Below are positions 1 through 44,953 of a DNA stretch of 64,000 bases, piece after piece (positions within the stretch are counted from its first letter, which is position 1; the number at the start of each line of letters is the position of its first letter). This stretch comes from Triglochin maritima. Its lineage: Eukaryota > Streptophyta > Magnoliopsida > Alismatales > Juncaginaceae. Made by a program: the position numbers and the translations under genes. The notes under the pieces were generated by a model. It saw nothing but the letters and a program-made list of their open reading frames with translations, was not told the origin of the DNA and made no database searches. The stretch is taken from contig OY821770.1 in NCBI GenBank assembly GCA_963682175.1, forward strand, positions 14,104,501 through 14,168,500. Reading direction: 5' to 3'.

Positions 1-213
1 CCTCGAACTAGACAACCTTCATCAAGGGACGTTATGTTGGGGACAATTTTTCACTAGCGACTGAGCTAGTGGCCGATTTTAAGAAAGCCACTTGTGCCCC
101 ACGAGCATGTATAAAGGTTATATTTATAAGTCATATGATTCAGTGGATTGGGGAGCTCTTTGGGGGACTTTTGAGGATTTTGGGTTCGACCAAATAGTAG
201 TGAAACTAATCGT
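1..213 (+). mobile_element. LINE reverse-transcriptase fragment (first copy)
   Basis: This stretch matches 1190-1400 at roughly 80% by eye, including the block that reads as the RT region before the catalytic core (a WGAL...FEDFGFD stretch). It is therefore a second copy of the same part of a non-LTR retrotransposon. The left side is cut by the window edge. Similarity stops near 213, where the sequence jumps to an earlier part of a LINE. No intact frame remains. Confidence 0.7.
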
Positions 214-215
214 AT

Positions 216-3107
216 TGGAGGCAGCCTAAGCGACCACTTGGTGGTAGGGCTAAATCTTCGAAAATATGAGAAAAGAAAGGCTCCGTTCAGGTTCATAAAC
301 TCTTGGATTAAGGTCCCTGATCTTATGCGCATGATCTGCGAGGTGTGGCAGGGCAACGTCAGGGGTACCATTTTCTTCCGCTTGGCCCAACGTCTGACTT
401 GGGTGAAGATCATGATCAAGAGAAGAAACAAGAGCATTTCCACCAGCCTCAACCCAATCACGGCAGCTACCAAAGAGATTAGGGAGGCCGAAGAAACGTT
501 GGGAAGGTCTCCTTTGAATATTCAAGCCCAAGAAAGGCTTCGCTGATGATAGAAAACTCCTTTGCGGCAAGGCAGATTGATGAGAATTGGCACCAAAGGA
601 GCAAGGCTATTTCGTTGAATCTTGGAGATAAAAATACTGAGTTCTTTGCCGTGGTAGTTAAGAAGATGAAATTTAAGAATTCTCTGTACAAGCTTGTTGG
701 GGAAAACGACAAGTGCATGATATCAAGGATGAACATGAAGGATAAGTGCACTTTGCATTTCTCCAAAATGTTTGAGGCATGCCATATGCTTCCAAATAGA
801 GTGTGTAGGAGGTTCACAAGACAATTGTCCTTGGCACAAAACCAAGATTCATCGAGGGTCCCAAGTTATGAAGAAGTCAAACAAACTGTGATGAAACTAA
901 ATCCAGACAAAACCCATGTCCGGATGGGTTTAATGACCTTTTCTTCTAGAAGTTTTCGTACATTGTGGGTGAGGATGTGGCACGCGTGGTCCAATCAATT
1001 TTCCTAGGCAAGCGGATACTGATAAGGATCAACCATAGGTTCATCACACTCATCTTTAAGAAGAGTGGTGTGGCAGACCTACCTGAGTTTCAGCCAATCT
1101 CTTGCGTCAACACAACTTACAAAATTCTGGGAAATATCATCATAAAGAGACTTATGCCAATTTTCAGGGATGTCATTTCCTCGAACGAGACAACCTTCAT
1201 CAAGAGATGCTACATTGGGTACAATATTTCACTAGCGACTGATCTAGTGGCTGATTTTAACAGAGCCACTTATGCCCCCACGAGCATGCATATAGGTCAA
1301 TATTTCCAAGGCATATGATTTGGTGGATTGGGGAGCTCTTAAAGAGACTTTTGAGGATTTTGGGTTTGACCACAGAGTTGTGACACTAATCATGGAATGT
1401 GTGACCAGTACTTCATTCTCGGTGCTAGTCGATGGCTGCCCTACCAAGCCATTTGGTGTGGGAAAGGGCTTGAGTAAGGTCGACCTTATCTCATATTATC
1501 TCTTCACATTGTTAATGGATAATTTCTCCAGAGACATTGATGAGAAGGTGAAGAGTGACAAGATTAAGTTGTACAAGTGTCATGGTACTGAGGCAATATC
1601 TCATTTGTCCAACGTAAATGTTTTACTCTATTCTGCAAAGCAATCAAGGACTCTTTCGGGGCAATTAATAAATCTATTCAGGCGTTTGCCACAAGCTCAA
1701 GGCTAGTGGTAAACTAGGAGAAGAGTAAGGCTACTGCAGGGCACAATGAATAAGGAGGAACTTGCACACGAGATTGGGTTTGGAATGGACGTACGAGTTT
1801 CCAACCCGGTACATTGGTCTGGCGCTAACACAAAAAATCCTCACCACTCGCGATTGTGGAAGGCTACTGGAGGTGATTGAGAACATGATGGCGAGATAGA
1901 AGGCCACAATACTATCATATGGTGGTAGGATCCAGCTCATCAACTGCGGTGTGATGGGGAACATCGTGTTTTGGAGTTCCTCATGACGTTTGCCGCAAGA
2001 GGTGATTGCGTGCATAAGAAGGAAGGTGTAGAACTTCATAAGGAATGGAAGGCGAGATGTGGCTTGGTCTAAGATGACTCTACCCAAAGAGGAGGGTGGA
2101 CTTGTCCTCTGGGGGTCCGTCGATATAGCTCGGGAAACTATCATCAAATATGCGTGGCAAGTTTGCCATGAGACAGACTCTATCCGGTGCAGATGGATGA
2201 GAACCAGACACGTCGGATCTCCATTGGAAAAATCTCTTTAAAAGGACTGGAATCGATTTCGCGACCTGGTGAGAGATTATGGACACAAAGGACCACGTAC
2301 TAAGATGCATGGACGGATACACACACCAATGGATCATATTTGGTAGTGGTTTCTCATTCAGAAACGCATGGGATATTGTCGAAAGGAGAGATCCTATGGC
2401 TATTCGAATTTGGGCTCCGTAGGTGAGCAAACACTCATTCACCCTTTGGAGAGCTCGTTTGGGGGTGGATCACCACTCAAGTCACTATGTCCCAACGTGA
2501 GAGGATCAACTTAGATATGAACATGACTTTCCACCTTTGCTTGGTCTATAATGAGCTTGGGTCACCTGTTCTTCGACAGCATGTGAGTACTCGAAAGACA
2601 TTTGGTTGGGCATCCGGAGGCAGAATAACAACATAATTGAAGCCCAAAACCAAAAAATTACATGACATTTTTGTACAGACGAGCGAATTATTGTTTGGCT
2701 CCCCCTGCTTGGGACTGATGTGGTCAATTATTGCTGTTGTTGTTTGACATATCTAGGCGGAACAAAAGAGGAGAAAACATGAAGCTAGATTGTTGGTGAG
2801 CTTGGAAGTCCTTAGAAGGATCCTATATGACATTATGGTTTCTTACCATAAGAATAATTTTAGGAGACGAGGAACTCAACTTGAGCAGAATGTATCAACC
2901 ATGTGGGATAGGGAGATCCGTGATTTGAATTCCCTATCTAGCATATAGAGGTTTGGTTGGATATTTGGATACCCATAATAGATCATGTAATTAGACTGGA
3001 TGTAGTTTCTATAGCAGTACGCACCAATTGGTGTGGTCTGGGTTGCTAGCTTCGACTAATTTTTTTCCTTTTTGAATACATTTTAACATAAATTGTTTCA
3101 AAAAAAA
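216..3107 (+). mobile_element. Degenerate LINE (non-LTR retrotransposon), 3' part
   Basis: Short open stretches in all three forward frames follow the order of a plant LINE ORF2. The endonuclease-RT linker lies at about 238-546. Next comes an RT stretch near 1085-1320 (FQPISCVNTTYKILGNIIIK, like the usual RPISCCN...YKI block). A VDG...GKGLS..L..YLFTLLMD block follows at 1420-1540. The C-terminal W.K...PKEEGGL region is near 2059-2200. The copy ends in an 8-A run at 3100-3107, the expected 3' tail. Many stops and frameshifts show it is dead. No endonuclease domain is visible, as for a 5'-truncated copy. Confidence 0.8.
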
Positions 3108-4110
3108 GTGGTAGTTACGTTTGGCCACCAACTAAGAGTCCGGTGGAAATGCCACTGTTAGCCGCCAACCACTTAAAAACTTATGTACCAAAAGGTCGTC
3201 CTATTCTTTTCACACCAAACAATTACCATGAGTGGACACAATCTACATGAAACACTTTCATCTCTTCTTCCTTACCAACTAGGGTTCCTCGGCAGGGTAG
3301 TTTCGCCATCTATTTCCGTTTTCAGAAGAAACGAAAAATGATAGAAACAACTAAATGAGATTTTGTGTCAAGAGTCCTAATACAAGGTCTATTGAAACAA
3401 GTACATCGATGATCTTGAGTTGACAGAACAGAGTTCAGGCGTCAATGGCTAGTTGGATATTGGCCAACACATCTTCAAAGGAAAGATCACTTTCAATATT
3501 ATCAGTCTATCACTACTACTGTAAGTTGTCTGCCTAGAGGTGTGGTCAATCGCCCCAAAATTAGGACACAGACCCAATCAGTAGTTTGATTGTGGAGTGG
3601 CCTAACATAGTCGACGGTTCTAGTGCCCATAGGACTTTGAAGATGGCTGCATCTACCAATCGATTTTGTCGAAAGTCGACCAAGCGTGTGAGCATTTTTT
3701 TCCTTCTTGTGTAGGTTAATTCGAAATTTTATTAAGAAAACGGAACGAACAACCGAGAGTAAAATCAAACTTAAGCTCTCCTTCTAAATGAACAAAATAA
3801 AAGCGAACAACCAAATCATTATCACTGACACTATTCTTAATTATACAACTTGCTCACAAAAAGGTTGAGAATCAATAACCAAAAATGAATAGTTATACAT
3901 GCTAATTCCTTTGATTTTATTTTCCCAACTCCTCCAATCCCAACGAACTCCGTGTTGATAGTGACGCTCCTCTCTCATTGGCCACCTTGTGCAACATTAA
4001 CCATGTCTAACTAAATTTTCGAAAATTTAGAGCACAAAGGGAATGAATCCATTCAGAAAGTCACGACCTGTACGAGAACCCGACCACCAAATTAACCTCC
4101 TCGTAGACCA
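3108..4110. other. Intergenic, no feature recognised
   Basis: AT-rich sequence between the LINE tail and the stop codon of the ATL-type gene. Short open frames exist but none resembles a known protein. The part just left of 4111 should contain the 3' untranslated region of that minus-strand gene. Confidence 0.5.
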
Positions 4111-4620
4111 TCAAGGACAACGTCCAATACCATTGCCCGACCCTTCTCCACGGGCTACCTCCGAATCCACAACCGGAGCCCGACAAAGTGGGCAATTCGA
4201 TTGCGAAAGGAACCACAAATCGACGCAATGCGTGTGGAAAATGTGCCCGCAATTGGGTAGCTTCCGCACGGCTTCCCGTTCCTCGAACTCCCCCAAACAC
4301 ACCGCGCACTCGCCTTGCTGAATCCGTCCCGATTCGTCATGCTTCATTTTACTATAGGCGTGGATTGGAATCGAGTTGAGAGTCTTCGAGTCCACGCCTA
4401 CATCTGACCCATTACCCGTACCTTCCTCAATGTCTTCTAACCACTCCGTTGACGTTGTTGTCGGGCCGGATTTGCACAATTGGATCATCACATAGTGTAT
4501 AGTAATAAGGCCCAAGGTGGCCACCACTAGTACGAACAAGGCGGCAATGAGTGGCATGATGGCCACGGTCGGGGATGCGGGTGGGACGGGTGGTGCGAAC
4601 GGGCGGTCTTCTGAGGCCAT
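4111..4620 (-). CDS. ATL-type RING-H2 E3 ubiquitin-protein ligase
   Basis: Single-exon gene of 169 residues with ATG at 4618-4620 and TGA at 4111-4113. Residues 20-44 form one hydrophobic segment, the N-terminal membrane anchor of ATL proteins. A weak form of the ATL GLD region sits at about 78-91. The RING-H2 is complete: C105, C108, C124, H126, H129, C132, C143 and C146, with spacing C-x2-C-x15-C-x1-H-x2-H-x2-C-x10-C-x2-C. W136 and the final CPLC are typical of E2-binding RINGs. By family knowledge it would be a membrane-bound ligase transferring ubiquitin to unknown targets, often in defence or stress responses. ATL genes are usually intronless, as here. No substrate can be inferred. A duplicated block lies 0.3-0.7 kb upstream. 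Confidence 0.9.
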   Translation of the reverse strand: MASEDRPFAPPVPPASPTVAIMPLIAALFVLVVATLGLITIHYVMIQLCKSGPTTTSTEWLEDIEEGTGNGSDVGVDSKTLNSIPIHAYSKMKHDESGRIQQGECAVCLGEFEEREAVRKLPNCGHIFHTHCVDLWFLSQSNCPLCRAPVVDSEVARGEGSGNGIGRCP

Positions 4621-4916
4621 TAGGTTACGATCGTATGCGATGGGACGGTTGTAGTGGCCCCAAGAATGAAGATGGTTTGGAGGGTGGTGGGAGTAGAATT
4701 GGAGTGATTTGTGGTGTTGGGGATGTTTTGATTTGGGACTTGGGAGGTGTGGTTGGGGTGGATGAGTGCTTGGGTCTTGAGGGGTTGGGTTTTTGGTGGA
4801 CGTTGGAGTGGTGGGTGGTCTGTTTTTTGGTGGTTATTTTAGAGTGACGTATAAGGTTGTGTTTTGTTAACCATAACTTTGGTTATTATGAACGAATTAG
4901 TATGTAACTATATACG

Positions 4917-5288
4917 AAGGATTTCAATCCAGTCAAATTGTAGCGGAGTTAAACTCTTTGTGTTGTTTCCTTCTAATATAATATATGATTACCAGGTGAT
5001 ATGACTTGTCCTGTGATGATTATTGGATGCAATTAGTAAAACTTATTCAGTTGATATCATCCCAGTAGGAGTTTGGATTTACTAAAAACTGTACTGAAGG
5101 AAATGAGCTAATATCAGGTTAAATTTGAGCCAACTAACTTGAGTAAAGATTTCAATCCTGTCAAATTTAGGGGATTTCAACCCTTTGTGTTGTTTTCCAT
5201 TCTAGTCAATTATCGTCAAGTGATATCGCTTGTCCTGTGATGATTAATGGATGCAATTATTCAAACTTATCCAGTTAATATTATTTCA
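4917..5288. repeat. Two-copy direct repeat upstream of the ATL-type gene
   Basis: A unit of about 145 bp occurs at 4917-5060 and again at 5145-5288. Shared blocks include GATTTCAATCC, TTTGTGTTGTTT, TTGTCCTGTGATGATTA and TGGATGCAATTA. The copies are about 75-80% identical by eye, separated by ~85 bp. They lie 300-670 bp upstream of the ATG of the minus-strand ATL gene, so they could be promoter sequence or simply an old local duplication. Confidence 0.75.
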
Positions 5289-6942
5289 AGGGGTGATTCA
5301 ATTTGCCAAAATTTGTGGTGAACTGAAATAAGCTTATATAAAATTGAACTTGAGCTTATTTATGGTTCCATCAACTTAATTTGTGATTCTTGTCAATTTT
5401 TTTTACTCGCAATGACATTTTGAGACTGAGAGCAATGGACTGAAGTAAATATCTTAATTGCAATCAATAATATTGTATGATATGAATATAGTAAAAGAGA
5501 CAACTAAAGATATCAAATTATCGACAGCCGAGATATTTACCATACTTTTACTCAACAAATAAAGTTCTTGCTCCATGTTCTGAAATAAGACATGCAATGG
5601 TAACACCAACAAAATCAAGACAAGCACCATCACGACAGAAAACACTTACGGAGATCAAATTCTCACTAAAGTTTCCATCAATTGTCGCAGGTTTTGACAG
5701 TTTTGGCGTCCAAGGCTTGAATACACGTCCAACATGCTTTGTTCCTTTTCAATTATTTGAAGGTTCAATTTGTGTAACTTAAGACCTCCATCCAACGCAA
5801 TTGAGCCCACCCAAATAGTTGGACGAGGCAGACTGACTTTAAGACACGCATCTCAAGAGTCTTGTTAACCTTGAAATGGATTTATAGAATTTAATTTTGA
5901 AATCCGATATTAACTTAGGAATTAGGATTTAATTAAGTTTTTGCAGGAAAAATAAGTAAAAAGTAGTTCAGTTCAAATTTGAATTTCTGTTTGGGAAAAA
6001 AATCAGTCGAGTTAAAGTTTATGTTCAATTTTATTATGTGTGTTTGATTTGAGTCATATCAAGCTGGCCTCAAGGCTCTAGGTAAATTAAAATTCGTGTC
6101 CGTATATTATAAGGTTAGTTAAAGTGTATCCCCTCGGCTGCTAAAAAATCTACGGGATATGCTGAATCTTGAATTATAACACTTCGTTTAGCTTTGTAAG
6201 TAAAACGTGGAAGATTATATTAATTTCTTTACAATCTAACTCTTTACACAGCGGCATAAAATTTCTTGAGATAATGACCGAAAAGTAACGTAACTTGAGA
6301 TATATGATCTTATGAAATATTGTCATATCTTAATGATCATATGCATTGTGATAGATGCATAACGTCAGAAATGTATATGAGGAAATATGTTCGACTTATA
6401 GATCCACTTCCGGCAATAACAAAAATTTAGATGCATATCGCCAATTCGGATATATGCAAGATGCACCCAAGCAAAATATCCTTTAAAACAAGGTCACTCA
6501 CATATCAACGCCAACACGTCATTACCATTCAAACTGGAAGATGAACCGAATCGTTCTCTTTTGAGTGTTTTAATATATCTTGTGTGAGACTGATTTGATC
6601 TCACTCTTACACTTATTTTATAAACTTATAAATATAACACAACGATTTTCAATCACATTCAATGGATTCATTGCGAATAATTGAAACATTACACAATTAA
6701 TTAATAGTATGGTGAATTGCTTGCATACCTTTTAACAACTTACGAAATTGGATATATACAATCGAAAAGCTAATGTTTGATCTAATGTCAAAGATAACAC
6801 TACATTTGCTTTCATACTATTACTTTTTTGGTCATGACATTCAATTATCTTTTCCGTTAACTTCCGTAAGTATATTAATATGTAATGAATTTTTTAAATC
6901 ACCCAAGAATAAACCTAGAAACATAAATTTAAGGATTTTTTG
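5289..6942. other. Intergenic, no feature recognised
   Basis: AT-rich DNA with no coding frame longer than about 65 codons and no paired termini that I could find. Confidence 0.5.
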
Positions 6943-8072
6943 CAAAGTAATAATGAAAAAATAGAAAAATGAAGTTGTAAAAATATTCCAAAAATATAAG
7001 AAATAAACACAGTAATTGAACTACCATTTAAAAGTAGAATCCAGTAACTCAAATACCATTTTATGCTTATTGAACTTATTCTAAAGAAATCATGTATTTC
7101 AATATAAAAAAAATTTAAACACGTTTTTAACATGATAGAATAAGTTTTTGAGTATTTTGATATCATATTCACATTTCTCTCATTTTTTTCATCAATTCAA
7201 GTACCATATTAAAATGGTTTTGTAGATTTTTGAAATTTAAATTTTTTAATGACAAATTAAAGATTTCACAAAAACTATAGTAAAATTGGTACTTAAATTA
7301 AAGATAAAAATATGAGGAATTCGAGTTTTTTTATCAAAATACCCCAAAAAAAACTATTTTGGGTATTTTTTTTTCTTAACTCGGATATTAGTCTTAAACC
7401 TAAAATAGGAATATAGCAAATTCAAATCCTCAAAATCCATAATCACATAAAAGAAAAAAATTATACTCCAACCCAAAAATAATATATTCTACTCCAACCC
7501 AAGAATAGCATATTCTCAATGGAAAAAAATTAGAAAATTCCCAAACAAAATATTACATTTTTTGTCCTACAAATGTTATTTTATTTTTAGATATTTCAGA
7601 TTAAGATGTTCGTCGACTTCAAATATATAATTTAAATTATACACAATCAATGAGTTTCTTTTTGTTATTTTGATCACAAAATCGAATTTTTCGTCTTTTA
7701 TCTTTAATTCAAGTTACAGTTTCCTGTATATTTGTTGAAATCCTTGATTTGTAAATAAAAAATTAATTTCAAAATCGTCAAAGTCCTTGTAATGTGGTAG
7801 TTGAATTGATGACAAAAAATAGAAAAATGTGAATATGTTATCAAAATACCTAAAAACTTATTCCATCATGTTAAAAATGTGTTTAATTTTGTTTGTTGAA
7901 ATGCATGATTTACTTTTAACTAGGATAAGTACAATACGGTATTTGAGTTACCATATTCTACTTTTCAAAATGGCATGCCAATTTCCATTTTTATTTCTTA
8001 TATTTTAATTTGCCATATATTTTTACAACTCTTATATTTTTCCAATTTTCTATTTTTTCATTATTATCTTGA
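6943..8072. repeat. Long inverted repeat (foldback or MULE-like element)
   Basis: The left arm (about 6943-7345) read in reverse complement matches the right arm (about 7662-8072) over roughly 390 bp. Matching blocks include ATAATGAAAAAATAG at the outer ends, CAAAATAC...AAAAACTTATT, TATTTGAGTTAC and TTGAATTGATGA. Arm identity is about 75-80% by eye and the loop is about 315 bp. There is no coding capacity. Weak similarity may extend to ~6890 and ~8125. I found no clear target-site duplication. Long AT-rich terminal inverted repeats suit a non-autonomous MULE or foldback element. Confidence 0.7.
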
Positions 8073-8152
8073 CAACAATTCCTAAAATTAATTGTGTTGC
8101 AAATTTTCGAAAAAATCACTTGAATAATTTATTATATGTTATTCACCTATCT

Positions 8153-8297
8153 ACTCTCTCTCACTCTTCACTCTCTCGCCCCTCTCTCTCTCCATCTCTA
8201 CTCTCTCTAATTTCTCTCTCTCTCTCTCTCTCTCTCATCTATTATCTTATCTTCTCTTCTCTTCTGTCTCTCATCTCTTCTGTCTCTCACCAATAAG
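8153..8297 (+). repeat. TC-rich microsatellite
   Basis: Pyrimidine tract dominated by TC dinucleotides (longest pure run around 8216-8238), then TCTTCTC variants. It lies about 80 bp outside the right arm of the long inverted repeat. Simple repeat with no coding meaning. Confidence 0.9.
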
Positions 8298-8910
8298 AGA
8301 TTGATTATTAAACTTTTTAAATATGTAAATTCTTGAAATTACTAATATATATTTTAAAAACATATTTCTAACTATTTTGTAAAAAACATTATGTATTTTT
8401 GGGAAATATTTACTTTGTATTAACTTTATTTAAAATTCATGTATTTAATATATTAAATTGTTTTAATAAATATGTAAAAAATCATTATTTTGAAATATGA
8501 TAATTAACAAATAAATATTTTTCAGAAATAAACATTTTTTATAAAAAAATAAACTTTCTTCGAATTTTTTTACTTATTTCTTAATTTTAAAATATAAAAA
8601 TGTTTAGTGAGAGAAAATAGAGAGAGAGATAAGTGAGAGAGTAAATATGTGGAAAACATTTAATAAATTATTCATTGGTATAATTCACAACACATATAAT
8701 GAAATATATAGTTCTAAGTTTATTCATGGTTGATTCTACAAATTTTCCATTAAATATTAATATAAGTAATTGAAGTTAATAATGACATGACCAAAAAACA
8801 ATAGTGGCACATAAGCAAGTGTCAGTGTTTTTATGTGGCATTACAAAAAAATTACTTTCTCATGAGATATTTCTAATTTTGCAAGTTGTTAGTAGCACGC
8901 AAGCAAATCA
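8298..8910. other. Intergenic, very AT-rich, no feature recognised
   Basis: A/T homopolymer-rich sequence between the TC microsatellite and the hAT element. Nothing recognisable. Confidence 0.5.
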
Positions 8911-8918
8911 CCTTCTAT

Positions 8919-9260
8919 TAGGTCTGTCAATCGTGTCGTGTACGTGTCTTATCGTGTGTATGGTCAGATGATAACAGGTATTGGGTATACACGAACCCGA
9001 CACGATAAGAAATCGTATACACGAACCTTGACACGAACACGACACGTTAATTATCGTGTATACACGACACGACACGATTTGTACACGAATTCTTATCGTG
9101 TCGTGTAACACGATACACGATAATACACGAATAGACACGAATAGTACCTGTATACACGATAAGTACCTGGAAACACGAAAAGTAACTACATACACAATAC
9201 ATACCTACATACACGATAAAAACCTAACACACAATAAACACACGTATACATGAATAGCCA
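8919..9260 (+). repeat. Left subterminal CACGA/TCGTG array of the hAT element
   Basis: More than twenty CACGA or TCGTG pentamers, many joined as CGTGTCGTGT or ACACGACACG, lie in both orientations. The right end holds the counterpart. In hAT elements such subterminal repeats bind transposase. Confidence 0.85.
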
Positions 9261-10152
9261 CGATAATACTTGTATACAGTTCAAAATGAAGAATGGTACA
9301 AAATCATCCGAATCAAACTGAAAAAATATATACTGAAATTCTTTTTAGCTCAACAGTCAACACACGTAATACACACTTTTGGAGTTTCAAGTAGATCAAA
9401 TAATGGACCCGATTGTTACACTGACGAAGCCAAAAGTTCTGGGATATCCAACGGGAGAACAACCTGCGGTAGACATAAGGAGAGCATTAGCCTTAAGTAA
9501 ACACTAGTCAAACTCAGACATGCTTCAAGGACAAACCTATATGCATTATGAGTTTTTCATCAAGATCTTTTGATTTGATTTTTATAATTCAAATCCATTG
9601 AATTTAATAGCTAAATAAGATCTTCATTTGTGATTCATGGCATGCCTACCTTTTCCAAGATATATCTGTCTCACATCCTTACTGTAATTTCACTTTGCAT
9701 TTTGAACTATTTAGAATATCTCTCATGCATTCTAATCTTTTCAGCATGTCATATGTAGCAATACCAATGATGCTATCAATTAAAATTTAAAGCGAAGGGT
9801 ATAATACCAACCTAACATTTGTATCTTCAGCATCCCCACAAAGCGATTTCTGCAGAAACAAAAATAACAAAAAATAAATATCTTTGATCCTGAAAGCCCT
9901 CAAATCATTTTATCGAAGACAAACAAAGAACAAAACTAACTAAATTTCTTAACATGCCAACACATGACACGAGAATCATAGACAATTTCCCTTTACTAAC
10001 GACATCAACTAAGTCAAAATCGAGCTTTCTAAGCATAAACTATGGTTGCTTCCTGTTGATTGCTTTCTGTCCCAAAAAATCATATTATGTGGAAGTGTGT
10101 CTAGCAGGATCACGATATTTGATTACTAAATCAGTACTTCATCAACAGAATC
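9261..10152. other. Internal hAT sequence, left half
   Basis: Sequence between the subterminal array and the Copia insertion. Open frames of 76-85 codons show no recognised domain. It may contain captured or untranslated DNA. Confidence 0.5.
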
Positions 10153-10157
10153 AAATG

Positions 10158-12202
10158 TGTAGGATTTCATGTTTAATTATACATATATATTTTTCGAATT
10201 TTCATGTATAATAATGATCAATTTTTAATTTTCTAGAATCTATTGCATGCATCGGTTTGTTTTAACAAACTAGTTTCAAAAACTCTTTTAAAACAAACAT
10301 AAAGGAGCTCCGAAATTCATACCTAGAAGTTCTCTAAAACTTCTCGAAGATTCGGAGACCGTTGGGATGCTCCTCGCTGCGCCGGATGCCTCCGAGTATT
10401 CACCAAACTCTAAACAAGATCGGAGAGAGGGAAGCTAGTCTCTCAATCTCCGATTGGGTTTAGAATCCAATTACTAACCCCTCTTTAATTCTCTTGAGAA
10501 GATGATCTCTCTAGAACTAAGACTAAACTTAAGAATTTCGTGGAGAATTATGGAGAGAGAATTTTTGCACAAGAGATAATGAATAAAATTAAGGAGGTAA
10601 TGAGATAACCTTGTATTTATAGGTTCTCTCCAAATTACCTATTCATGTGCAACCTCTTGCCCATGATTCCATGCAAAATTCCATCTAACCATCCATTATT
10701 TATTAATAAATAATATTAGCCACGAATTAAATCAATTATGGACCAATTCCATGCATGATCTAATTAATTCTTAAATTAATTCTGCATAAAACTGTCTGGA
10801 CCGGTCGACCGTTCAAGGTGCGGTCGACCGCTCGAACCAATGTTTCGGTCGACCGTTCAACATTCGGTCGGCCGTTCGTAATAGGAATTATTCCATCGCA
10901 ATGTTCGGTCGACCGACCGATCACTTTCGGTCGACCGTTCGAACAGATGAAAATTCCCTGTTATCGGTCGAGACTCGTCCGGTCGACCGTGCCCTACCGG
11001 TCGACCGTTTACTGCTATCCGGTCGACCGTTGGAGCACTCTTTTGCAGACTTGTCAAATTTCGGTTTAACCCCTACAAAATTTGACATTTCGGGATTAGT
11101 AGTAAATTCACAACTTATGTAACATATTATCCTATGTAATGATCAATCATTACACCCCATAATATTTACATCACATATGAATTTAATTTAGATTCTAATT
11201 ATGTTATTAATCACAACATAATCTTGATTTTGCTCGTTCACTCCATGTGTTTAATTTTTTTTACATGAAACCCGACACATCTTATGAACTCAAAATCCTC
11301 ATTCCTTGTTTCCTAGTTTTGTGGTGTGACCTATGGGAGGATCTAAACTAAGTTGGCAGTGATATTAAGAGCTTAATATCACAAGCTATAAGCGGTATCT
11401 AGCTACACATTATAGCTCCCAATTAGTTAGATGTCTTAATTCCACTCGAACCAAAACCCGATCCATTTAGTGATGGCGTGCACCACTCGTGTCTGTCCCT
11501 TGCCTCATGATATTAAGAATACACACAAAGTAGTATTGTGTCATCTTTGTCTTAGTATTCATTTCTTGATCTCTTTAAGCTAGTTATAAATATGTGACTT
11601 AACTCAAATCACATTGTGCACATTATAACTTTGCTTTATCAAGGGGCCCACTAATATCATCACTCAATTAAGAGGGGCAATGATAGTCTTTTGACTAACT
11701 ATCTTCTCCAACAAAAGTTGTACTTAACCAACCAATGCCTTTACACTACACTGATCGATAGTTCAAGACACTGATCTAATTAAGTATTCCTTAAGTGATT
11801 AGATATAAGTCTCATATCAAAGGACCAAAGACACAGTAAAATATTAATGACACAGAAACACATTTCTATAATATTTTACTTATTAGGTCTATTTAGTATA
11901 CAAAAGTAATATTTTCCTCTTTTGCATACCCGTGTTGTCACTCACTTGTAGAGCTACAATGATCTATGACCAACACGACAATCTTAACTCGGTAATTAAT
12001 GTTCCATGTTAATTACCATGATTGCGAATATCTTTTGTTTTATGTAAACCAATATCTTTTAGAGCTCTACGGTTAAGGACCAAGAGCCTCTTCCTTAACA
12101 CTTCTAAAAGACGAATAACATAAACAATGAACAAAATGATTTCTAATTCAATTCATAATAATTGACATTTAAAAGTAAAACTTTTAGAACACATTCCCTT
12201 CA
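10158..12202 (-). repeat. 3' LTR of the Copia element
   Basis: 2,045 bp with TG...CA ends (read on the minus strand it starts at 12202). It matches 17525-19567 nearly base for base. It holds a palindrome array at 10799-11033. A minus-strand TATA box (CTATAAATAC) lies near 10612-10623, about 180 bp downstream of the array in the direction of transcription, so the array is in U3. Confidence 0.95.
10799..11033. repeat. CGGTCGACCG palindrome array in the Copia 3' LTR
   Basis: Eight exact GGTCGACC cores lie in about 235 bp, plus variants (CGGTCGGCCG, CGGTCGAGAC). Most extend to the 10-bp palindrome CGGTCGACCG. Spacing is irregular, about 17-60 bp. The phrase CTGTTATCGGTCGA is at 10958-10971. The array is CpG-rich while the LTR around it is AT-rich. 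Confidence 0.9.
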
Positions 12203-12213
12203 ATCTCCCACTT
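12203..12213 (-). promoter_or_regulatory. Polypurine tract of the Copia element
   Basis: Reads AAGTGGGAGAT on the minus strand directly before the 3' LTR, the expected plus-strand priming site. Confidence 0.85.
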
Positions 12214-12299
12214 GTTATCAAAGTTTTCTTTCACATACATTCTCAATGTATAAAACATTAATAACTAGGGTAACCTTCCTAAATCACCTATCAAGCCAA

Positions 12300-14700
12300 T
12301 CTACATGGATCCTCGGATCCATGGACTCGAAATATATTTCGTCTCTTAGCTTGGTATTAAGGTTTGTTGAATGGATCAGTTGTGTCACTGTTGTGTCCAC
12401 CTATTCATTTATTTTGTCTTTCGTTGGTGGTTGAGTTAGCTGTAGTGATATTACTCCTAACTACACTAGCTCATACCTCCACCTTTGATAATGATGACGC
12501 ATCATCACTCCAACCTCTTATTGTCTAGAATTCCTATAAGAATTGCATCAAAACAGCCATCGGCTATTTTCTCCTTTGTCTTCCATAAACAAGAACTTTA
12601 TCTTTAGTCCGGTTAAGGTACTTCAGAATATTCTTGACCGCAATCCTATGATTAGGACTTGCGTTGGATTAGTGACCTCTTGTCACGTTTAGAGCATACG
12701 AGATATTGAGTCTTGTGCAAGCCATTGTGTACATGGTCCTTCCTTTTGCCGAAGCATAAGTGATACCTTCATGTACTCCAAGTCTTTGTGTGATTGAGCA
12801 CATTGAGACTTCTTGAGTTGCACACCTATACTCATACTTATTGGCATATTGTCCATATCGGAATTGTTCACCCTGAACATTTCAAAGACCTTGTCAATGT
12901 ATACACGTTGACTTAGACCAATGAGTATATGAGATGTATCTCTTTATATCTTGATAATCAAGATGTATTGAGCCTCACTCACATCTTTTCATTGAACATA
13001 CTGATTTCAATGAAATTTCTCGTCTGCTAATGCAAAGGTATATGATTGCTCATGAGCAATATGTCATCGACATATAAGATCAGAAGTACTACATGGCTCC
13101 CACTAATCTCCTTGTATATACAAGGTACTCCTTTACTTTGAATGAAGTGAATTTTCCTCACCTCTTCGTCAAAGCGTTTGTTCCAACTCCTCGATGCTTG
13201 CTTCAATCCATAAATGGATTCTCGAAACTTGCATTTCTTCTCGCTACTATTTGGATCATCAAAACCTTGAGGTTGTACCATGTACATATCCTCCTCCAAG
13301 TTCCTGTTTAAGGAACGCCATTTTGATATCCATTTTCCATATCCCACAATTGAGAAATGCGGTAATAGTGAGCATAATCCGAATAGATTTTAATATGACA
13401 ACTTCTCAAAAATTTCATCAAAGTCAATTTCTTGAATTTGAGTATAACTTTTGCCACAAGCCTTGCTTTGTAGGTTGTCAAGTTACTATCCATGTCTATC
13501 TTCCTCCTAAAAGTTCATTTATACCAAATGATATTTTCTCTTGAGGAAGGCTAATCAAGTTTCATACTTGATGATCATACATGGATTCTACTTCGGATTC
13601 CATGGCTTTTAACCATAGTTTGGAGTCTTTTCTATTGCTTCTCGGAAGGTCGAGGGATCATTTGGTATCTAGTACCATGATCTCATGAAGTCCCACATAC
13701 TTATTGGGTTTCTTCCTTTCCCTCATTGACCTTCTTAGTTCTTTTGGTTCTTCTCGTGTCTCTCGAACTTCTTCCACAATTTCTTGAGGAATAGGTTCAT
13801 GTTCGACTCTCGAACGCACACTAGGTGAGGATGACTGAGATTCTCTCACAATTTCTTGTAAGGATCTCTCGCTCATGCTCCCACTAACCAAATGAATCTC
13901 GGTTGGGCCTTCATGATTTTGAATGCAACATTCACATCATGATCTTGTAGAGTATCTTGAGTTTCCTCAAGCTCAACTCTACTCCCACTACTTTTCTCTC
14001 TTTTCCAGAAATTCCAGAAAAACCATATCTCTCTCTACAATCTTTCAATTGGAGGTGATATACCAAAAGTAGCATCCTCTTGTCACACGAGGACAACCTA
14101 TAAAGAAGCACTTAATCCGTTTTTGGTTGAAGTTTGGTCGACATCAATTTCTCGACGTAGACCTCACAACCCCAAATCTTGAGAAAGTTGAGCTTAGGTG
14201 TCTTTCAACTCCATAGCTCATAAACTATTTTCTCCACGGATTTGGATGGAACATTATTTAGTGAGTTTGTCATTATTTGTAGTGCATAATTCTAAAAGTA
14301 AATCGGCAATTTAAATTGACTCATTATTGATCGAACCATGTCGAGCAATATCCTATTCCTACTTTAGGAATGAGTCAAATTAGGTATCCTAAGCACTCAC
14401 CCCTACGAACCGTTCATAGAGACTCGATATTCTTGTTGAGTCGGTTCATTACTTCATCCTCGAATTCCTTGAACTTGTCAAAGAATTCACTTTTGCTTCC
14501 CATTAGACAAATATAGTCATAATGACTATAGTTGTCTGTGAACAAAATGAAGTACCTTAAACCGTCTCTTGCACTTGTACTTATCGGACCACATACATTA
14601 GAATGTATCATATCCAATTAGTTATTCGTTTTCGTTCCTTTCTTCTTGAAAAGTCTCTTGGTCATTTATTTGACCAATCCGATAGTGCTACAAGATCGTA
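12300..14700 (-). pseudogene. Decayed Copia pol: integrase, RT and RNase H region
   Basis: Copia pol pieces appear in order along the minus strand, in different frames. An integrase-core stretch is at 14414-14617 (GPISTSARDGLRYFILFTDN). The integrase-RT linker is at 13658-13891. RT follows at about 13308-13493 (KARLVAK start) and 13027-13347, with the catalytic YVDD at 13063-13074. The RT/RNase H connection is near 12690-12880 and 12570-12660 (AVKNILKYLNRTKD). Frames are broken many times, so no functional enzyme can be made. Confidence 0.9.
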
Positions 14701-15049
14701 TCATTCACGTGAGTTATCTTAGTTTCTCTTTTGTTATTGTTTGTTTGAGTTTGTTCATTATTTATTTCAATCAAATAGAAATCATTCCATATGAATGTAT
14801 TTGCATAGAAAATTCCATTCTTCGATATAGACAAGCAAGAATTAAAATATTTATTAAAATTTATCCATATCCAAAACTTGATACAGAATAGTTCTTGCTA
14901 ATCGAAGGTACATAACAAACATTCTACAAAGCATAAATTTAAATCACTAGACTATTGAAGTTCCATAGAATCTTGTACAATCGCAGCGATGCTTGTACTA
15001 TTTCCAATCTTCAATATCATCTCGTTCTCCACGAGTTCCTTCCTATCCT

Positions 15050-16021
15050 TCAATAGCTGCACATCAAAATTATGTGAGCACAAGATCCGGTAACCATTAC
15101 CAAATCAAGGATAGAGGTGATTAAATTTATTTCAATAACAAACATACCTATGGCGCTTCTCGGGCGCCTACGTTCAATCATCCCATTTTCAAGGTCTTCC
15201 TTGTACTTGGGGCAATTCGGTCGGATGTGTCCATTTTCACCGCAGTGAAAGCACTCCGTGTTGGGAGTTGGAGATTTGAAAGATTTCCCCCTTGAGGCAC
15301 TCCCATGAGTACCTCCCACTCCCTTGCTCTTGATTGACGTATCTTTGGTAAATTTGCATTTACCTTTGTTGATCTTTTTGCTCTTCTTATGGATAGCAAG
15401 GACCTCATGGTCCCTACTCTTGCCCATATCAAGTTCAGCTGTTTTGAGAGCGTTGTGAAGCTCCTCAAGACTCACCCCTTTTTCACGCACATGATAGTGC
15501 ATCACAAAATCCTTAAAGGACGGGGCTAGAGAGCCAAGAATTAGATCTTCGGCAATGTCCACTGACATTGGAGAAGAGAGCTTCGACAACTTCTCAAGGT
15601 ATCCTTGCATCGTGAGAAAATGCATGGATACCGATGTTCCCTCCGCCATATAGCACCTTGTGAGTGCGATGGTGGTCTTATAGCGCTCCTTTCGGGCACT
15701 ATCCATGAACATCTTGGTTAGAGCCTCCACGGTCTTCTTGGGTTTTGAATCCAAGTATTTCGCTTGAAGCGAGTCACCCATGGATGCTAGTATAAGACCG
15801 TGAACTTGGTTCTCTTGGTCTTCCCACTTGGCTATCACCTCTTTCTCTTTATCGGTTGCCTTCTCATTTAATTTTGGGATTTCACCATCCAAAATATGAG
15901 ATAGTTTTTCAAACCTCAACACGATATTAAGATTGAGTTGCCATTTCATGAAGTTTGAGCCATCATTTTGCAAAGGGTTCTTTTCGATCATAGATCGCAC
16001 AATTGGTTGGATATTTGACAT
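15050..16021 (-). CDS. Copia gag protein, intact open frame
   Basis: The ATG chosen at 16019-16021 starts MSNIQPIVRS. A longer frame runs back to 16141, but its extra N-terminus is hydrophobic and unlike gag. The protein has a Copia gag N-terminal region (SNFMKWQLNLNIVLR...), a central domain with ERYKTTIALTRCYMAEGTSV and LILGSLAPSF blocks, a basic Lys/Ser-rich stretch, and one CCHC zinc knuckle (CFHCGENGHIRPNC, 15212-15253). Downstream it reads into a protease-like VIEINLITS segment whose catalytic D-T/S-G is degraded (VTGSCAHI). Gag packages the element RNA into cytoplasmic particles. An open gag beside a ruined pol is notable. Confidence 0.85.
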   Translation of the reverse strand: MSNIQPIVRSMIEKNPLQNDGSNFMKWQLNLNIVLRFEKLSHILDGEIPKLNEKATDKEKEVIAKWEDQENQVHGLILASMGDSLQAKYLDSKPKKTVEALTKMFMDSARKERYKTTIALTRCYMAEGTSVSMHFLTMQGYLEKLSKLSSPMSVDIAEDLILGSLAPSFKDFVMHYHVREKGVSLEELHNALKTAELDMGKSRDHEVLAIHKKSKKINKGKCKFTKDTSIKSKGVGGTHGSASRGKSFKSPTPNTECFHCGENGHIRPNCPKYKEDLENGMIERRRPRSAIGMFVIEINLITSILDLVMVTGSCAHIILMCSY

Positions 16022-17511
16022 TTCTACAAAATAAATTATATAGGTTTTAATGCCAATTTTATGTTTTAATACATACATATATATATCGAATATGATGTAA
16101 ATACTGCAAATAAAATCTTGCCCGTAAATGCAGTAATCCAAGATCCCATCAATTGTAATATAGACTAGCTAAGGGCTATCGAATACATTACAACATCAAG
16201 GTAAGAAAACATTTTCTAATCACAACCTTTTTGAATTTTAGCAACATTTAGCATCTTCAAACTTTTGTGACTCTTGTCGTTTTAATTATGAGGGAATGCG
16301 ACCTATCCTCGTAAGAAAAACTTTTTCCCAAAACCGAGCGAGGGCTCTAGGTAATGTTAAGAAAACTTATTTTCATTTGATACGAGATACGTTTATCTAT
16401 TGTATTCACAACTAAACATACTTGGGGTTCACTAGGGTGAAACACACCTCATATATTTAATTGTGGCACAACAACAGACAACCTTTATATCTCCCACTAT
16501 TCCCAAAGATAGAGGGAGCTATCTCCCGCTAAGGACGAGCAGAGTATCCCTTGATCAATGGCTGCTAGTGGATGAAATAAGAAGGAAAACTATTCTTAAT
16601 TTTTGTTGGACAATTTTAACATGTGATTTTGAATTTTAGTTTATCATGCATATTAAAATTGATACACATCCTAACATTCATCATTCATCACATGCATAGC
16701 AGAAATTATAAAAACAGAAATTAAACATTCACACAATCCACATCGTGTGAGTTTATATGTTCCCTTCGATCCTCGATCCTCGATCCACGATCCTCGATCC
16801 TCGATCGATGTGCTACAGCGGCGACTTCCTCTTGCACCGGAGATGTAGATTTTACAGAAAATAAACATGCTCCTCACATTCGATAAAAACCGACTAGTGC
16901 AAGTCCTATGTAAAAACCTCTCATATGCAAATGCAACTATCTAAAAGATGGAAATAGAGAGAATTTTGGCTTTTACATACATAAGCCCCTGTATTATAAT
17001 AATAACATACATTCACAATCGCTGATTTGGAACATATAAACTCACAATTCCTGCAAAAACAACTCGAGCATCCATGCACGCAATATCGCTATAAACTATG
17101 CAATCTAGTTTATCAAGCATCTAGAATCTCAAACAATTCTTTGAAAAATGTTTTGAAATCCATTAAAAACATTTTTCATGCATCCATAGTTCAAAAATTA
17201 ATTATGAACCGCTGTCCATCCAATTTCCAATGGAAAGATGAATCGCAGTTTTTTCGGTTTTGTTGATTCTCTTACAAAATAATCGTTTATACTTAAAACG
17301 AAATTATTGCAAGTTAGACTTATGTCCAAATCATAATTCTAGTAATTTCATGACATGTTTTAAACATTCAAAATATTTAAAATGAATTATTACAAAGAAT
17401 TATTTCAACAAACATTTAAAGACCGAAAAACCGGTAAAACGAATTGTTTAAATCCTAGATGGTAAACTAAATTTGTTTACAGCCATGAATCATAAGAAAA
17501 TTGAACCCTAA
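16022..17511 (-). other. 5' leader of the Copia element
   Basis: About 1.5 kb between primer site and gag start, with no coding signal. It contains a 7-bp tandem repeat (about six CGATCCT-type units) at 16766-16810. Leaders of this kind normally carry packaging and dimerisation signals. Confidence 0.6.
16766..16810 (-). repeat. 7-bp tandem repeat in the Copia leader
   Basis: Consecutive CGATCCT units with one CGATCCA variant, ending in CGATCGATG. On the transcribed strand this is a purine-rich GGATCGA repeat. Confidence 0.85.
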
Positions 17512-17523
17512 GCTCTGATACCA
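17512..17523 (-). promoter_or_regulatory. Primer binding site, tRNA-iMet
   Basis: Minus strand reads TGGTATCAGAGC one base inside the 5' LTR. This is the standard plant primer site complementary to the 3' end of initiator methionine tRNA, and it fixes the element's orientation. Confidence 0.95.
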
Positions 17524-17524
17524 C

Positions 17525-19567
17525 TGTAGGATTTCATGTTTAATTATACATATATATTTTTTGAATTTTCATGTATAATAATGATCAATTTTTAATTTTA
17601 TAGAATCTATTGCATGCATCGGTTTGTTTTAACAAACTAGTTTCAAAAACTCTATTAAAACAAACATAAAGGAGCTCCGAAATTCATACCTAGAAGTTCT
17701 CTAAAACTTCTCGAAGATTCAGAGACCGTTGGGATGCTCCTCGCTGCGCCGGATGCCTCCGAGTATTCACCAAACTCTAAACAAGATCGGAAAGAGGGAA
17801 GCTAGTCTCTCAATCTCCGATTGGGTTTAGAATCCAATTACTAACCCCTCTTTAATTCTCTTGAGAAGATGATCTCTCTAGAACTAAGACTAAACTTAAG
17901 AATTTCGTGGAGAATTATGGAGAGAGAATTTTTGCACAAGAGATAATGAATAAAATTAAGGAGGTAATGAGATAACCTTGTATTTATAGGTTCTCTCCAA
18001 ATTACCTATTCATGTGCAACCTCTTGCCCATGATTCCATGCAAAATTCCATCTAACCATCCATTATTTATTAATAAATAATATTAGCCACGAATTAAATC
18101 AATTATGGACCAATTCCATGCATGATCTAATTAATTCTTAAATTAATTCTGCATAAAACCGTCTGGACCGGTCGACCGTTCAAGGTGCGGTCGACCGCTC
18201 GAACCAATGTTTCGGTCGACCGTTCAACATTCGGTCGGCCGTTCGTAATAGGAATTATTCCATCGCAATGTTCAGTCGACCGACCGATCACTTTCGGTCG
18301 ACCGTTCGAACAGATGAAAATTCCCTGTTATCGGTCGAGACTCGTCCGGTCGACCGTGCCCTACCGGTCGACCGTTTACTGCTATCCGGTCGACCGTTCG
18401 AGCACTCTTTTGCAGACTTGTCAAATTTCGGTTTAACCCCTACAAAATTTGACATTTCGGGATTAGTAGTAAATTCACAACTTATGTAACATATTATCCT
18501 ATGTAATGATCAATCATTACACCCCATAATATTGACATCACATATGAATTTAATTTAGATTCTAATTATGTTATTAATCACAACAAAATCTTGATTTTGC
18601 TCGTTCACCCCATGTGTCATATTTTCTACATGAAACCCGACACATCTTATGAACTCAAAATCCCCATTCCTTGTTTCCTAGTTTTGTGGTGTGACCTATG
18701 GGAGGATCTAAACTAGGTTGGCAGTGATATTAAGAGCTTAATATCACAAGCTATAAGCGGTATCTAGCTACACATTATAGCTCCCAATTAGTTAGATGTC
18801 TTAATTCCACTCGAACCAAAACCCGATCCATTTAGTGATGGCGTGCACCACTCGTGTCTGTCCCTTGCCTCATGATATTAAGAATACACACAAAGTAGTA
18901 TTGTGTCATCTTTGTCTTAGTATTCATTTCTTGATCTCTTTAAGCTAGTTATAAATATGTGACTTAACTCAAATCACATTGTGCACATTATAACTTTGCT
19001 TTATCAAGGGGCCCACTAATATCATCACTCAATTAAGAGGGGCAATGATAGTCTTTTGACTAACTATCTTCTCCAACAAAAGTTGTACTTAACCAACCAA
19101 TGCCTTTACACTACACTGATCGATAGTTCAAGACACTGATCTAATTAAGTATTCCTTAAGTGATTAGATATAAGTCTCATATCAAAGGACCAAAGACACA
19201 GTAAAATATTAATGACACAGAAACACATTTCTATAATATTTTACTTATTAGGTCTATTTAGTATACAAAAGTAATATTTTCCTCTTTTGCATACCCGTGT
19301 TGTCACTCACTTGTAGAGCTACAATGATCTATGACCAACACGACAATCTTAACTCGGTAATTAATGTTCCATGTTAATTACCATGATTGCGAATATCTTT
19401 TGTTTTATGTAAACCAATATCTTTTAGAGCTCTACGGTTAAGGACCAAGAGCCTCTTCCTTAACACTTCTAAAAGACGAATAACATAAACAATGAACAAA
19501 ATGATTTCTCATTCAATTCATAATAATTGACATTTAAAAGTAAAACTTTTAGAACACATTCCCTTCA
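17525..19567 (-). repeat. 5' LTR of the Copia element
   Basis: 2,043 bp with TG...CA ends. It differs from the left LTR at scattered single bases and by one small length change near 18610-18630 (left copy about 11240-11270). Its palindrome array is at 18166-18400. Confidence 0.95.
18166..18400. repeat. CGGTCGACCG palindrome array in the Copia 5' LTR
   Basis: Same array as in the partner LTR. One core is mutated (CAGTCGACCG near 18272) and one flank differs (CCGTTCGAG instead of CCGTTGGAG). Confidence 0.9.
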
Positions 19568-24969: not shown

Positions 24970-25340
24970 TCAGTCGACCGTTGATAAATATGACAAGTAT
25001 AACGTTCATATTTAATACGAATACAGAAATGCAATCGGTCGAACAAAAATGAAGTTTCGGTCGACCGAAAGTCTCACTAACTAGGACACGTGTCAACAAC
25101 TGATATGCTAGAAGATTTGAATCGGATAAACTAATTCCTATCCGTAGACAAGGTGAAACGGTCGAACGGAAAAGGTATGTCGGTCAACCATTTTTAGACA
25201 GACAAACTAGATAAATATAACGGTCGAACTAGAAGAGGAATTTGGTCGACCGTTTTGGACATAAAAGGTGTTCTGGGATAGTTTATTGAAATCCGGTAGA
25301 ACAAGATGGTTCTATCGGTCGACCGGTTGAATACTGAAAT
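24970..25340. repeat. CGGTCGACCG motif cluster outside any delimited LTR
   Basis: Three exact GGTCGACC cores (near 25055, 25242 and 25317) plus half-sites and variants (CGGTCGAA, CGGTCAACC, AGTCGACCG) lie in ~370 bp. The flanking sequence does not match the LTRs in this window, and no TG/CA ends with a duplication were found. Most likely a remnant of another LTR family. Confidence 0.75.
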
Positions 25341-31175: not shown

Positions 31176-32440
31176 GACCTAAATTGCATCCACATTTACC
31201 TCTTATGATTTAGAATCACCAACATGCTCTTCTAGACCACCATTTTTTGAGGAAACAAATTTCTGTTCATGGAAGAGTAAAATGAAGATATACTTCAAAT
31301 TCATGACTAATTTAGATATGTGGTCCATGATTATAACTCTATATGGTATGCCTAAATATGATTACAAACAATGGAGTTTAGAAGAGGAGAAATTAGCTTG
31401 CTTGAATGCCAATGTTATGAATGTATTGCATTGTGCACTTAAGTATGAACTTTTTGACCTTGTTTCTTCTTGTGAAAGTGCACATCATATTTGGCAAACG
31501 TTTCAAGCTAATTATGGTGAAAATGAAGAATCACCAACCGGGAAAGAGGGAGAATCAAGTCAATTGGATGAAGTTCATGAGAGATGGGACAAGAACACAT
31601 CTACATCATATTCCTCGTTAACCTCATCCAAAGGAGAAGATGCCCACGCATGCCTCATTGCAATAGAAGATGAAGAAAATGAGGTATCTTCCAAAACTAG
31701 TTCATATAGTTCTAGTTCTAACAATGAATCATATTCTTTTAAAGAACAACAAAATGCATTCCATGAGCTAGTTGAAAGATATGAGCTACTTTGTCAAAAG
31801 AAAAAGTTAGCTAGAGAAGTAAATCATGATCTTTATTGTCAAAATGAAAATGAATCTATCTTAAATGAGAAAAATGATTTGCTTGCTAAACTTGATAAAA
31901 TCATTTTGGAGAATGCGTGCTTAAAAGATGAGAATGAGGAATTGAAAACTAAACCCAACTCATCTCATGTTATTGATAGTCATATGCTTGAAAATGAAAA
32001 GAATGACTTGCTTAAGAAACTTGAAGAATCAAATCTTGAAAGCAAGAACTTATTGAATGACTTGAATTGCATAAATGACAAATATATTGAATTCAAGATT
32101 CACATGGATGAAATGAATGACAAGCACATTTCTTTAATTGAAAATCTAAAATGCATAAATGAATCCCTTGTGCTTAGAAATGATGAACTTAATGCTAAAA
32201 ATGAAACATTGATTAACGATTTGCATAAGTTCACAAATGGGAAGAAGAACATTGATATGCTTCTGTGATATCAAAGACAGTCATTAGACAAACATGGTTT
32301 AGGGCATAATGTATTTTATGTTAAAAAACATCTTGTTCATGATAGTATAAATGGAAAGCATCATATTGCCATGAAAAGAACCTCAAGTGTTTGGGCACCT
32401 AAATCCACTTGGTTATGAGTATCAAAGGCTAAATTGAATG
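31176..32440 (+). pseudogene. Copia gag, internally deleted
   Basis: The frame reads from RPPFFEETNFCSWKSKM-like codons (about 31230) through a gag N-terminal domain (WSLEEEKLACLNANVMNVLH, LVSSCESAHHIWQTF). It then jumps abruptly (near 31520) to an acidic Ser-rich region and a long coiled coil (31740-32260), as in SIRE-type gags. The CCHC knuckle that normally lies between is missing. TGA at 32266-32268 interrupts a frame that continues into a WAPKSTWL...GPKQKWVPKST block, which in relatives precedes the protease. The original start codon is not evident, because a stop (TAA) lies just upstream. Confidence 0.75.
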
Positions 32441-40340: not shown

Positions 40341-40343
40341 ATT

Positions 40344-44952: not shown

Positions 44953-44953
44953 T

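Follow-up and report, generated by a model that had tools for sequence, protein, structure and literature searches.

RM boxes, palindromic CGG-CCG repeats situated upstream of the TATA box, were described in the LTRs of Sireviruses, with CGGTCGACCG as the grape consensus (Bousios et al. 2010, PMC2829016). In its sections on these boxes, that study termed them Sirevirus-specific and absent from classic Copia elements, its data set being composed of Ty1/copia elements only, and no common binding factor was found for them. The maize Sirevirus palindrome CACCGGACNNNGTCCGGTG is also frequent in Helitrons and was discussed as RNA structure (PMC10760457), and maize small RNAs concentrate on Sirevirus palindromes (PMC10760457, PMC5311732), according to the passages of these papers devoted to the palindromes.

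The stretch analysed here (the window; 64 kb, C1:14104501-14168500 of the genome) carries dense arrays of a palindrome for which the first-pass annotation had named a precedent in maize Sireviruses. This precedent was correct and proved closer than claimed, the grape Sirevirus motif being the identical 10-mer (PMC2829016, Table 3).

Abundance of the palindrome and the elements carrying it

Exact CGGTCGACCG sites amounted to 59 in the 64 kb of the window, where 0.01 were expected, and exact GGTCGACC cores to 64, where 0.39 were expected. The core clusters listed by the first-pass annotation were recovered with every number it gave: 8, 7, 10, 6, 2 (decayed), 9, 9 and 9 cores at 10.8, 18.2, 27.3, 30.0, 34.5, 38.9, 45.4 and 60.4 kb, respectively. 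Only four of the 64 cores were located elsewhere, one at 1478 and three at 25059-25324. The genome-wide count that had been proposed as a check confirmed the enrichment: 359,535 exact copies in 1.063 Gb, against 90 for the reversed-letter control and 121 for a first-order Markov estimate derived from the samples described below, a count that probably places CGGTCGACCG among the commonest 10-mers genome-wide. The initial observation holds and is larger than stated.

The samples consisted of 18 places of 10 kb (L009-L026), taken at fixed coordinates on eleven large contigs and representing 180 kb with 170,551 non-N bases. They contained 63 exact sites; after runs of N, and with strands collapsed, the commonest 10-mers were GGTCGACCGA (73) and CGGTCGACCG (63). 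No core was found in ten of the 18 samples and a single one in another. An array required three or more sites, each with at most one mismatch, and gaps of at most 250 bp; arrays so delimited included 62 of the 63 exact sample sites. According to LTR type, 34 of these were of Sirevirus type (L017, L019 and L021; 27 of them at L017 alone), 26 of Gypsy type (L014, L020 and L026; the seven at L014 being assigned tentatively, by flank similarity and not by BLAST match) and two of E1 type (L025). The grass-type box CGGTCNGACCG was absent from the sequence scanned. Another palindrome, TGTGGCCACA, occurred 12 times in samples L009-L026.

At least four lineages carry arrays: the classic Copia element E1, the short-LTR Copia element L029, Sireviruses and a Gypsy chromovirus lineage (see Table 1 for the features of the window).

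Table 1. Carrier elements, LTRs and palindrome arrays of the window
Feature	Position	Strand	Characteristics
E1 (Copia)	10158-19567	-	LTRs ~2.05 kb, 99.07% alike; TSD AAATG
E1 3' LTR	10158-12202	-	TG..CA ends; TSD AAATG; 99.07% to 5' LTR
E1 3' LTR array, 8 exact CGGTCGACCG	10802-11029	-	~180 bp upstream of TATAAAT
E1 coding region	13030-16168	-	gag PF14223 at 15053-16168; RVT_2 piece at 13030-13389
E1 5' LTR	17525-19567	-	LTR comparison; TSD
E1 5' LTR array, 7 exact sites	18169-18396	-	motif count
Array outside any recognised LTR: 2 exact 10-mers, 3 cores, 3 CGGTCGAAC variants	24971-25325	.	
Sirevirus LTR (27 kb)	26968-28372	+	extent from BLAST, ends approximate
Array in 27 kb Sirevirus LTR: 9 exact 10-mers, 10 cores, one ACTTAAGT at 27729	27332-27824	+	~100 bp upstream of TATAAAT
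Second, diverged Sirevirus LTR (30 kb)	29601-30998	+	~78% to first (27 kb) LTR
Array in 30 kb Sirevirus LTR: 4 exact 10-mers, 6 cores, ACTTAAGT at 30361 and 30371	30001-30472	+	
Solo LTR, E1 type	33733-35857	-	TSD ATGAG
Decayed array in E1-type solo LTR: 2 exact among 4 sites within 1 mismatch	34381-34676	-	
E3 (Gypsy) 5' LTR	38431-40340	+	TSD TAAAC
E3 5' LTR array: 9 exact sites and 9 CGGTCGAAC variants	38862-39497	+	downstream of TATAAAT at ~38566
E3 gag-pol frames: gag, RVP_2, RVT_1, RNase H, integrase	40413-44747	+	Pfam scan in pieces
E3 3' LTR	44954-46863	+	LTR comparison; TSD
E3 3' LTR array, 9 exact sites	45385-46020	+	motif count
Solo LTR, E3 type	59990-61899	+	TSD ATTTC
E3-type solo LTR array, 9 exact sites	60421-61056	+	motif count

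The first-pass annotation had attributed the arrays to two Copia lineages and one Gypsy chromovirus. The Copia nature of E1 and the Gypsy nature of E3 stood, the LTRs at 27-31 kb probably being of Sirevirus type (by similarity to L017), but no Chromo domain was found in E3 itself by Pfam scan. The arrays at 27.3 and 30.0 kb belong to two diverged LTRs and not to one element. E3 (38431-46863) displayed RVT_1, Ty3 capsid and SH3_Tf2-1 matches, with rve at 23.3 bits, below the cut-off of 32.6. L030, a member of family F4 with an uninterrupted frame of 1,473 aa, was related to E3 in the 3' internal region; its chromodomain (PF00385), located after the integrase, scored 25.9 bits, narrowly above the cut-off of 25.1.

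The LTRs at 27-31 kb were considered as Sirevirus LTRs because they are similar to L017, which bears the Sirevirus polypurine signature: its linker displayed five AGGGGGAG polypurine tracts (at -287, -234, -153, -83 and -10 from the 3' LTR), the terminal one being followed by an AT/TG attachment site (AGGGGGAGAT, then TGTTGG). Their own flanks contained no AGGGGGAG in the two scanned, and the frame at 31183-32265 gave no Pfam match. Locus L017 (G000:C5:25000001-25010000, 1-10000) included three Sirevirus LTR arrays with a period of ~3.79 kb, PF14223 gag frames lying between them and the LTR regions being 97-99.7% alike; this layout looks like tandem LTR-gag units.

By the polypurine criterion, as worded in PMC2829016, E1 is not a Sirevirus because its terminal tract is AGTGGGAG and AGGGGGAG is absent from the 5,320 nt of its internal region, which contains five more AGTGGGAG; a change from G to T at the third place of the tract is among the commonest in classic Copia elements, according to the same text. 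No significant match was obtained between the gags of E1 and L017. Element L029 was a Copia member with LTRs of ~0.84 kb and an RVT_2 domain; AGGGGGAG was absent from 4,035 nt of its internal region, the terminal tract being AAAGGTGGAGAT.

Element E4 (51297-58734), with a Gypsy-type gag, TSD ATAAT and LTRs ~98% alike, was devoid of the motif and constitutes a natural negative control. Elsewhere in the window, an open frame of 240 aa (4114-4833, - strand) encodes a RING-H2 finger (PF13639) and is likely a host gene. A search with matK gave two strong matches (C167 and C157) and nine weaker, fragmentary ones elsewhere in the genome, which are likely plastid DNA transfers. The matK of C167 shared 82% identity with that of Butomus umbellatus (Alismatales), 81% with Stratiotes and 80% with Aponogeton, one further entry reaching 99%, and the host was accordingly considered an alismatid monocot.

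That the palindrome is shared between superfamilies, and this on the scale of the genome, that the carriers belong to more than one family and that their LTRs are otherwise unalignable was borne out: once the motif was masked, LTRs of different lineages gave no BLAST alignment, the sole Copia-Gypsy link being a GAA-rich stretch of 43 bp. An apparent Sirevirus-Gypsy cluster was dropped as a product of this match.

TATA boxes were placed from sequence alone, and further TATA-like words were present in E1, the 30 kb LTR and L017. On these placements, the Copia arrays (E1 and Sireviruses) would lie upstream of a TATA-like box, as the first-pass annotation had it, the last exact site and the box being at LTR coordinates 1403 and 1584 in E1, 864 and 961 in the 27 kb LTR, 747 and 1000 in the 30 kb LTR, and 814 and 911 in L017. 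The best TATA of the E3 LTR (TATAAAT, position 136) preceded the array (432-1067) by ~300 bp, which leaves the array downstream; more TATA-like words were found at 889-900 and 1815. Two F4 LTRs gave no match to the TATA pattern. The traits of RM boxes (a CGG-CCG palindrome, a minimum of 8 copies, clustering in the LTR upstream of TATA) were present in E1, the 27 kb LTR and L017, the positional one being absent in E3 if the first TATA is used. Non-Sirevirus hosts comprised E1, L029, E3 and L030; the specificity for Sireviruses, as expressed in the account of the box in PMC2829016, appears not to hold in this genome.

Spacing, companion sites and conservation of the arrays

Adjacent exact sites were mostly 18-25, 31-33, 40-42, 50-54, 57-64, 72-79, 84-88, 94-96, 114-116 and 124-127 bp apart. 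A scan of periods from 6 to 20 bp in 28 arrays yielded 10.5 bp as the best one (R 0.52 for 115 adjacent and 0.48 for 299 pairwise distances), the arrays being not all independent since L029 was retained twice, once per LTR (C1:126337 and 131231), and single families could contribute several arrays. This set was drawn from 90 of the 100 genome places among the matches listed, ten at C1:195226-195741 (second LTR of the 188451 element) being left out, and six further LTR copies were removed. With the six single-pair arrays dropped, a scan from 6 to 30 bp in the remaining 22 gave 10.5 bp again for pair distances of 0-200, 30-200, 60-200 and 100-300 bp. None of 1000 jittered sets (sites moved by at most 5 bp) reached the observed value in any of these four ranges. 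At 150-400 bp the best period was 10.4 (R 0.34).

The jitter test was also performed by lineage on 12 arrays, those of L020 being left out and variant sites counted. The observed value was reached in 0 of 2000 sets for Sireviruses, 0 of 2000 for Gypsy and three of 2000 for Copia L029, for which an unconstrained scan preferred 7.3 bp (R 0.78) to values near 10.5 bp (R 0.74). E1 alone was not significantly phased (273 of 2000; 35 pairs, best period 11.7 bp). Weakly phased arrays were encountered at L020:8907 (R 0.12), C1:188451 (0.21) and C1:106889 (0.27).

Genome-wide pairs of GGTCGACC numbered 90,306 at centre distances of 20-22 bp, 7,224 at 23-24 bp, 5,150 at 25-27 bp and 124 at 15-17 bp (reversed control 0 throughout), and 12 at 10-12 bp (reversed control 6). 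Two turns form the peak while one and one-and-a-half turns are nearly empty, which indicates a minimum distance of ~18 bp, as expected for bound protein. Among the matches listed, 80 distinct spacers taken from the 20-22 bp pairs were diverse (lengths 14, 13 and 12 in 50, 19 and 11 cases, respectively), ACTTAAGT lay between both sites in 15 of 50 pairs at 23-24 bp, and the 25-27 bp pairs were mostly 25 bp with few recurring spacers.

Two other sequences shared the phase of the exact sites. The commonest non-CpG variant, CGGTCGAAC (36 sites with any tenth base), was in phase with them (R 0.34 at 10.5 bp for 163 distances, without jitter control). The window, L001 and the 18 samples together contained 17 copies of the 8-mer palindrome ACTTAAGT, ten of which lay within 300 bp of exact sites. 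In the phase set, to which L029 and L030 were added and from which extra LTR copies were dropped, ten ACTTAAGT sites in nine arrays (Sirevirus, Copia L029 and Gypsy type) were in phase (R 0.72, 0 of 5000); the arrays of E1 contained none. Among words shared by three lineages or more, a blind 7-mer scan of the arrays ranked ACTTAAG first by count, every site entering this count twice, and revealed five occurrences of TGCAAAA in four lineages. The composite CTG[TC]TATCGGTCGA was recurrent inside arrays of E1, Sirevirus and E3 (window 10958, 27624, 38990 and 39279; L017 1654), yet it was not retained as a shared module, the longest-word test having failed to establish sharing.

Conservation was assessed in nine LTR comparisons: three close pairs between different elements, five distant pairs and the two LTRs of E1. 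In close pairs, CpG loss affected 1 of 117 motif positions, 33 of 239 outside the array and 10 of 98 in spacers (motif versus outside, nominal p 2.5e-5, the counts being directional and the copies related). All substitutions taken together amounted to 3/198 in the motif, 47/789 in spacers and 291/3944 outside. The CpG difference was smaller in the distant pairs (57/245 in the motif versus 133/329 outside the array), where in-array alignment is uncertain and motif sites may have been aligned preferentially with one another. For the two LTRs of E1, whose divergence dates entirely from after insertion, the figures were 1/47 versus 4/60.

A putative common reader and its alternatives

Three causes had been offered earlier for the sharing: a host factor, exchange of a regulatory module, and a common silencing or escape target. 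A shared DNA-binding factor fits best among them, since the sites keep helical phase and hardly ever lie close together; that the reader would be a protein, and a single one, we infer. On balance we find it probable that the arrays, which unrelated LTR lineages would use in cis, are binding lattices for a putative sequence-specific, probably homodimeric protein.

What is observed is a fixed 10-mer that recurs on a 10.5-bp lattice and respects a minimum distance. Within it, CGGTCGACCG would be one symmetric site, CGGTCGAAC a tolerated asymmetric site and ACTTAAGT a second kind of site. The protein would bind each site as a dimer, with neighbours on one face of the helix, and contact or cooperation between bound molecules on that face may explain both the tendency of sites to be phased at multiples of 10.5 bp and their separation by at least ~18 bp. 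Occupancy of the lattice would drive or license LTR transcription; a silencing target fits less well than an activating or anti-silencing role with the promoter-near place and with the way close copies preserve the motif, and LTR expression would presumably be raised. Dependence on one and the same factor, adopted by several unrelated lineages through convergence and perhaps some exchange, would account for their common lattice. Against this reading speak the place of the array, which precedes the best TATA in Copia but follows it in Gypsy, the lack of significant phasing in E1 alone, the weakly phased arrays and the smaller CpG difference in distant pairs. A wider proposal, in which expression or anti-silencing of most LTR lineages of this genome, Copia and Gypsy alike, would depend on one trans-acting protein that binds cooperatively along one face of the DNA, is tentative; the identical code of a grape Sirevirus suggests that such a factor might be an old angiosperm protein, on whose code the lineages converged.

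We regard it as unlikely that the lattice is read by a TE-encoded or domesticated anti-silencing protein removing LTR methylation in the manner of the VANC proteins of Arabidopsis VANDAL elements, with other families as free-riders. VANC21 and VANC6 act via dense short-motif arrays in non-coding regions, and the VANC6 motif is also present in AT9TSD1, an unrelated element that loses methylation (PMC5735166); the motif studied here is likewise CpG-rich and kept between close copies. VANC motifs are, however, same-orientation tandem repeats, described without helical phasing in the relevant part of that paper (PMC5735166), and 29 of the 60 one-mismatch sites found here were CpG transitions, a pattern expected of old copies under methylation and decay, so that decayed copies look methylated.

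An action of the palindromes as RNA, whereby transcript hairpins feed small-RNA silencing or aid genome dimerisation, appears improbable. In maize, for whose Sireviruses such silencing has been argued, the palindromes are small-RNA hotspots predicted to be strongly structured (PMC10760457, PMC5311732), but pairing requires no 10.5-bp phasing of double-stranded DNA. Moreover, spacers were less self-complementary than chance (mirrored-position pairing 0.349 in the 80 spacers, versus 0.403 for randomly re-paired halves), which speaks against hairpin stems.

Nucleosome positioning, with GC-rich cores and A/T flanks setting rotation every 10.5 bp, is quite improbable as well. The motif flanks at -1 and -2 are rich in A/T and the period fits helical DNA, but spacers carried neither a WW (z -1.4) nor an SS (z +0.96) phased dinucleotide signal, and a rotational code requires neither an exact 10-mer nor avoidance of 10-12 bp.

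Module exchange received one suggestive case: an exact 21-mer containing ACTTAAGT was common to Copia L029 and Gypsy L020, a result reached in none of 60 spacer-shuffled sets. In the other five lineage pairs, the observed length of the longest shared word was reached in 1, 9, 26, 31 and 46 of 60 sets. Exchange was rejected as a general cause, motif-masked BLAST having revealed no broad homology between superfamilies. Among 12 flank comparisons, the lowest nulls between superfamilies or Copia lineages were those of E1-Sirevirus on the left (8/500) and Sirevirus-Gypsy (F4/F5) on the right (19/500), followed by E1-F4/F5 on the right (49/500); the remaining ones of this kind ranged from 149 to 295 of 500. 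Within Gypsy, the flanks of E3 and F4/F5 gave 9/500 and 8/500. A neutral origin, in which one LTR module multiplied by slippage or gene conversion and spread by inter-family recombination, could draw on the same 21-mer and on repeated spacing patterns in some arrays (e.g. 19 and 88 bp twice in the 27.3 kb array) but is disfavoured as very improbable, a 10.5-bp lattice nearly devoid of 10-12 bp pairs being unexpected from tandem duplication, spacers being diverse and motif CpGs being kept in close pairs.

If a code read by a common protein is indeed shared across superfamilies, retrotransposons would compete for, or depend on, one factor, and one protein could set the activity of many. The phasing, the ~18 bp minimum, the asymmetric variant and the second phased motif provide a concrete probe for finding the reader of the box.

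Comparison with known systems

The Drosophila gypsy element contains an array of Su(Hw) sites in its 5' untranslated region, acting as an insulator. The Gypsy arrays described here would be alike in placing sites for a host factor, putative in this case, in the transcribed leader of such an element; motif, kingdom and function (insulator) differ, and the Su(Hw) array concerns one family. The arrays of VANC/VANDAL systems are also composed of dense short motifs in non-coding TE regions, with one unrelated TE carrying a VANC motif, but they belong to DNA transposons, their motifs are family-specific and their protein reader is known, whereas the present one is putative (PMC5735166, in its treatment of these arrays). 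Maize CACCGGACNNNGTCCGGTG likewise is one palindrome common to two TE orders in one genome; its sequence is different, and sharing there is with Helitrons (PMC10760457, in the part concerning this palindrome).

The RM boxes of the grape Sirevirus are close relatives: the same 10-mer, palindromic, with 10 copies in its LTR, within CpG islands and upstream of TATA (PMC2829016). Among the matches listed in the open-licence literature, only that study ties the motif to a transposon. Unlike the boxes reported there, those of this genome extend beyond Sireviruses to two other Copia families and to a Gypsy chromovirus lineage, and they are phased, together with a second phased motif, ACTTAAGT, while helical phasing is not mentioned in the description of the boxes in PMC2829016. 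As far as searches of the open-licence literature go, the occurrence of the same box in classic Copia and Gypsy elements, its scale, the helical lattice with a minimum distance, and the phased variant and ACTTAAGT are new.
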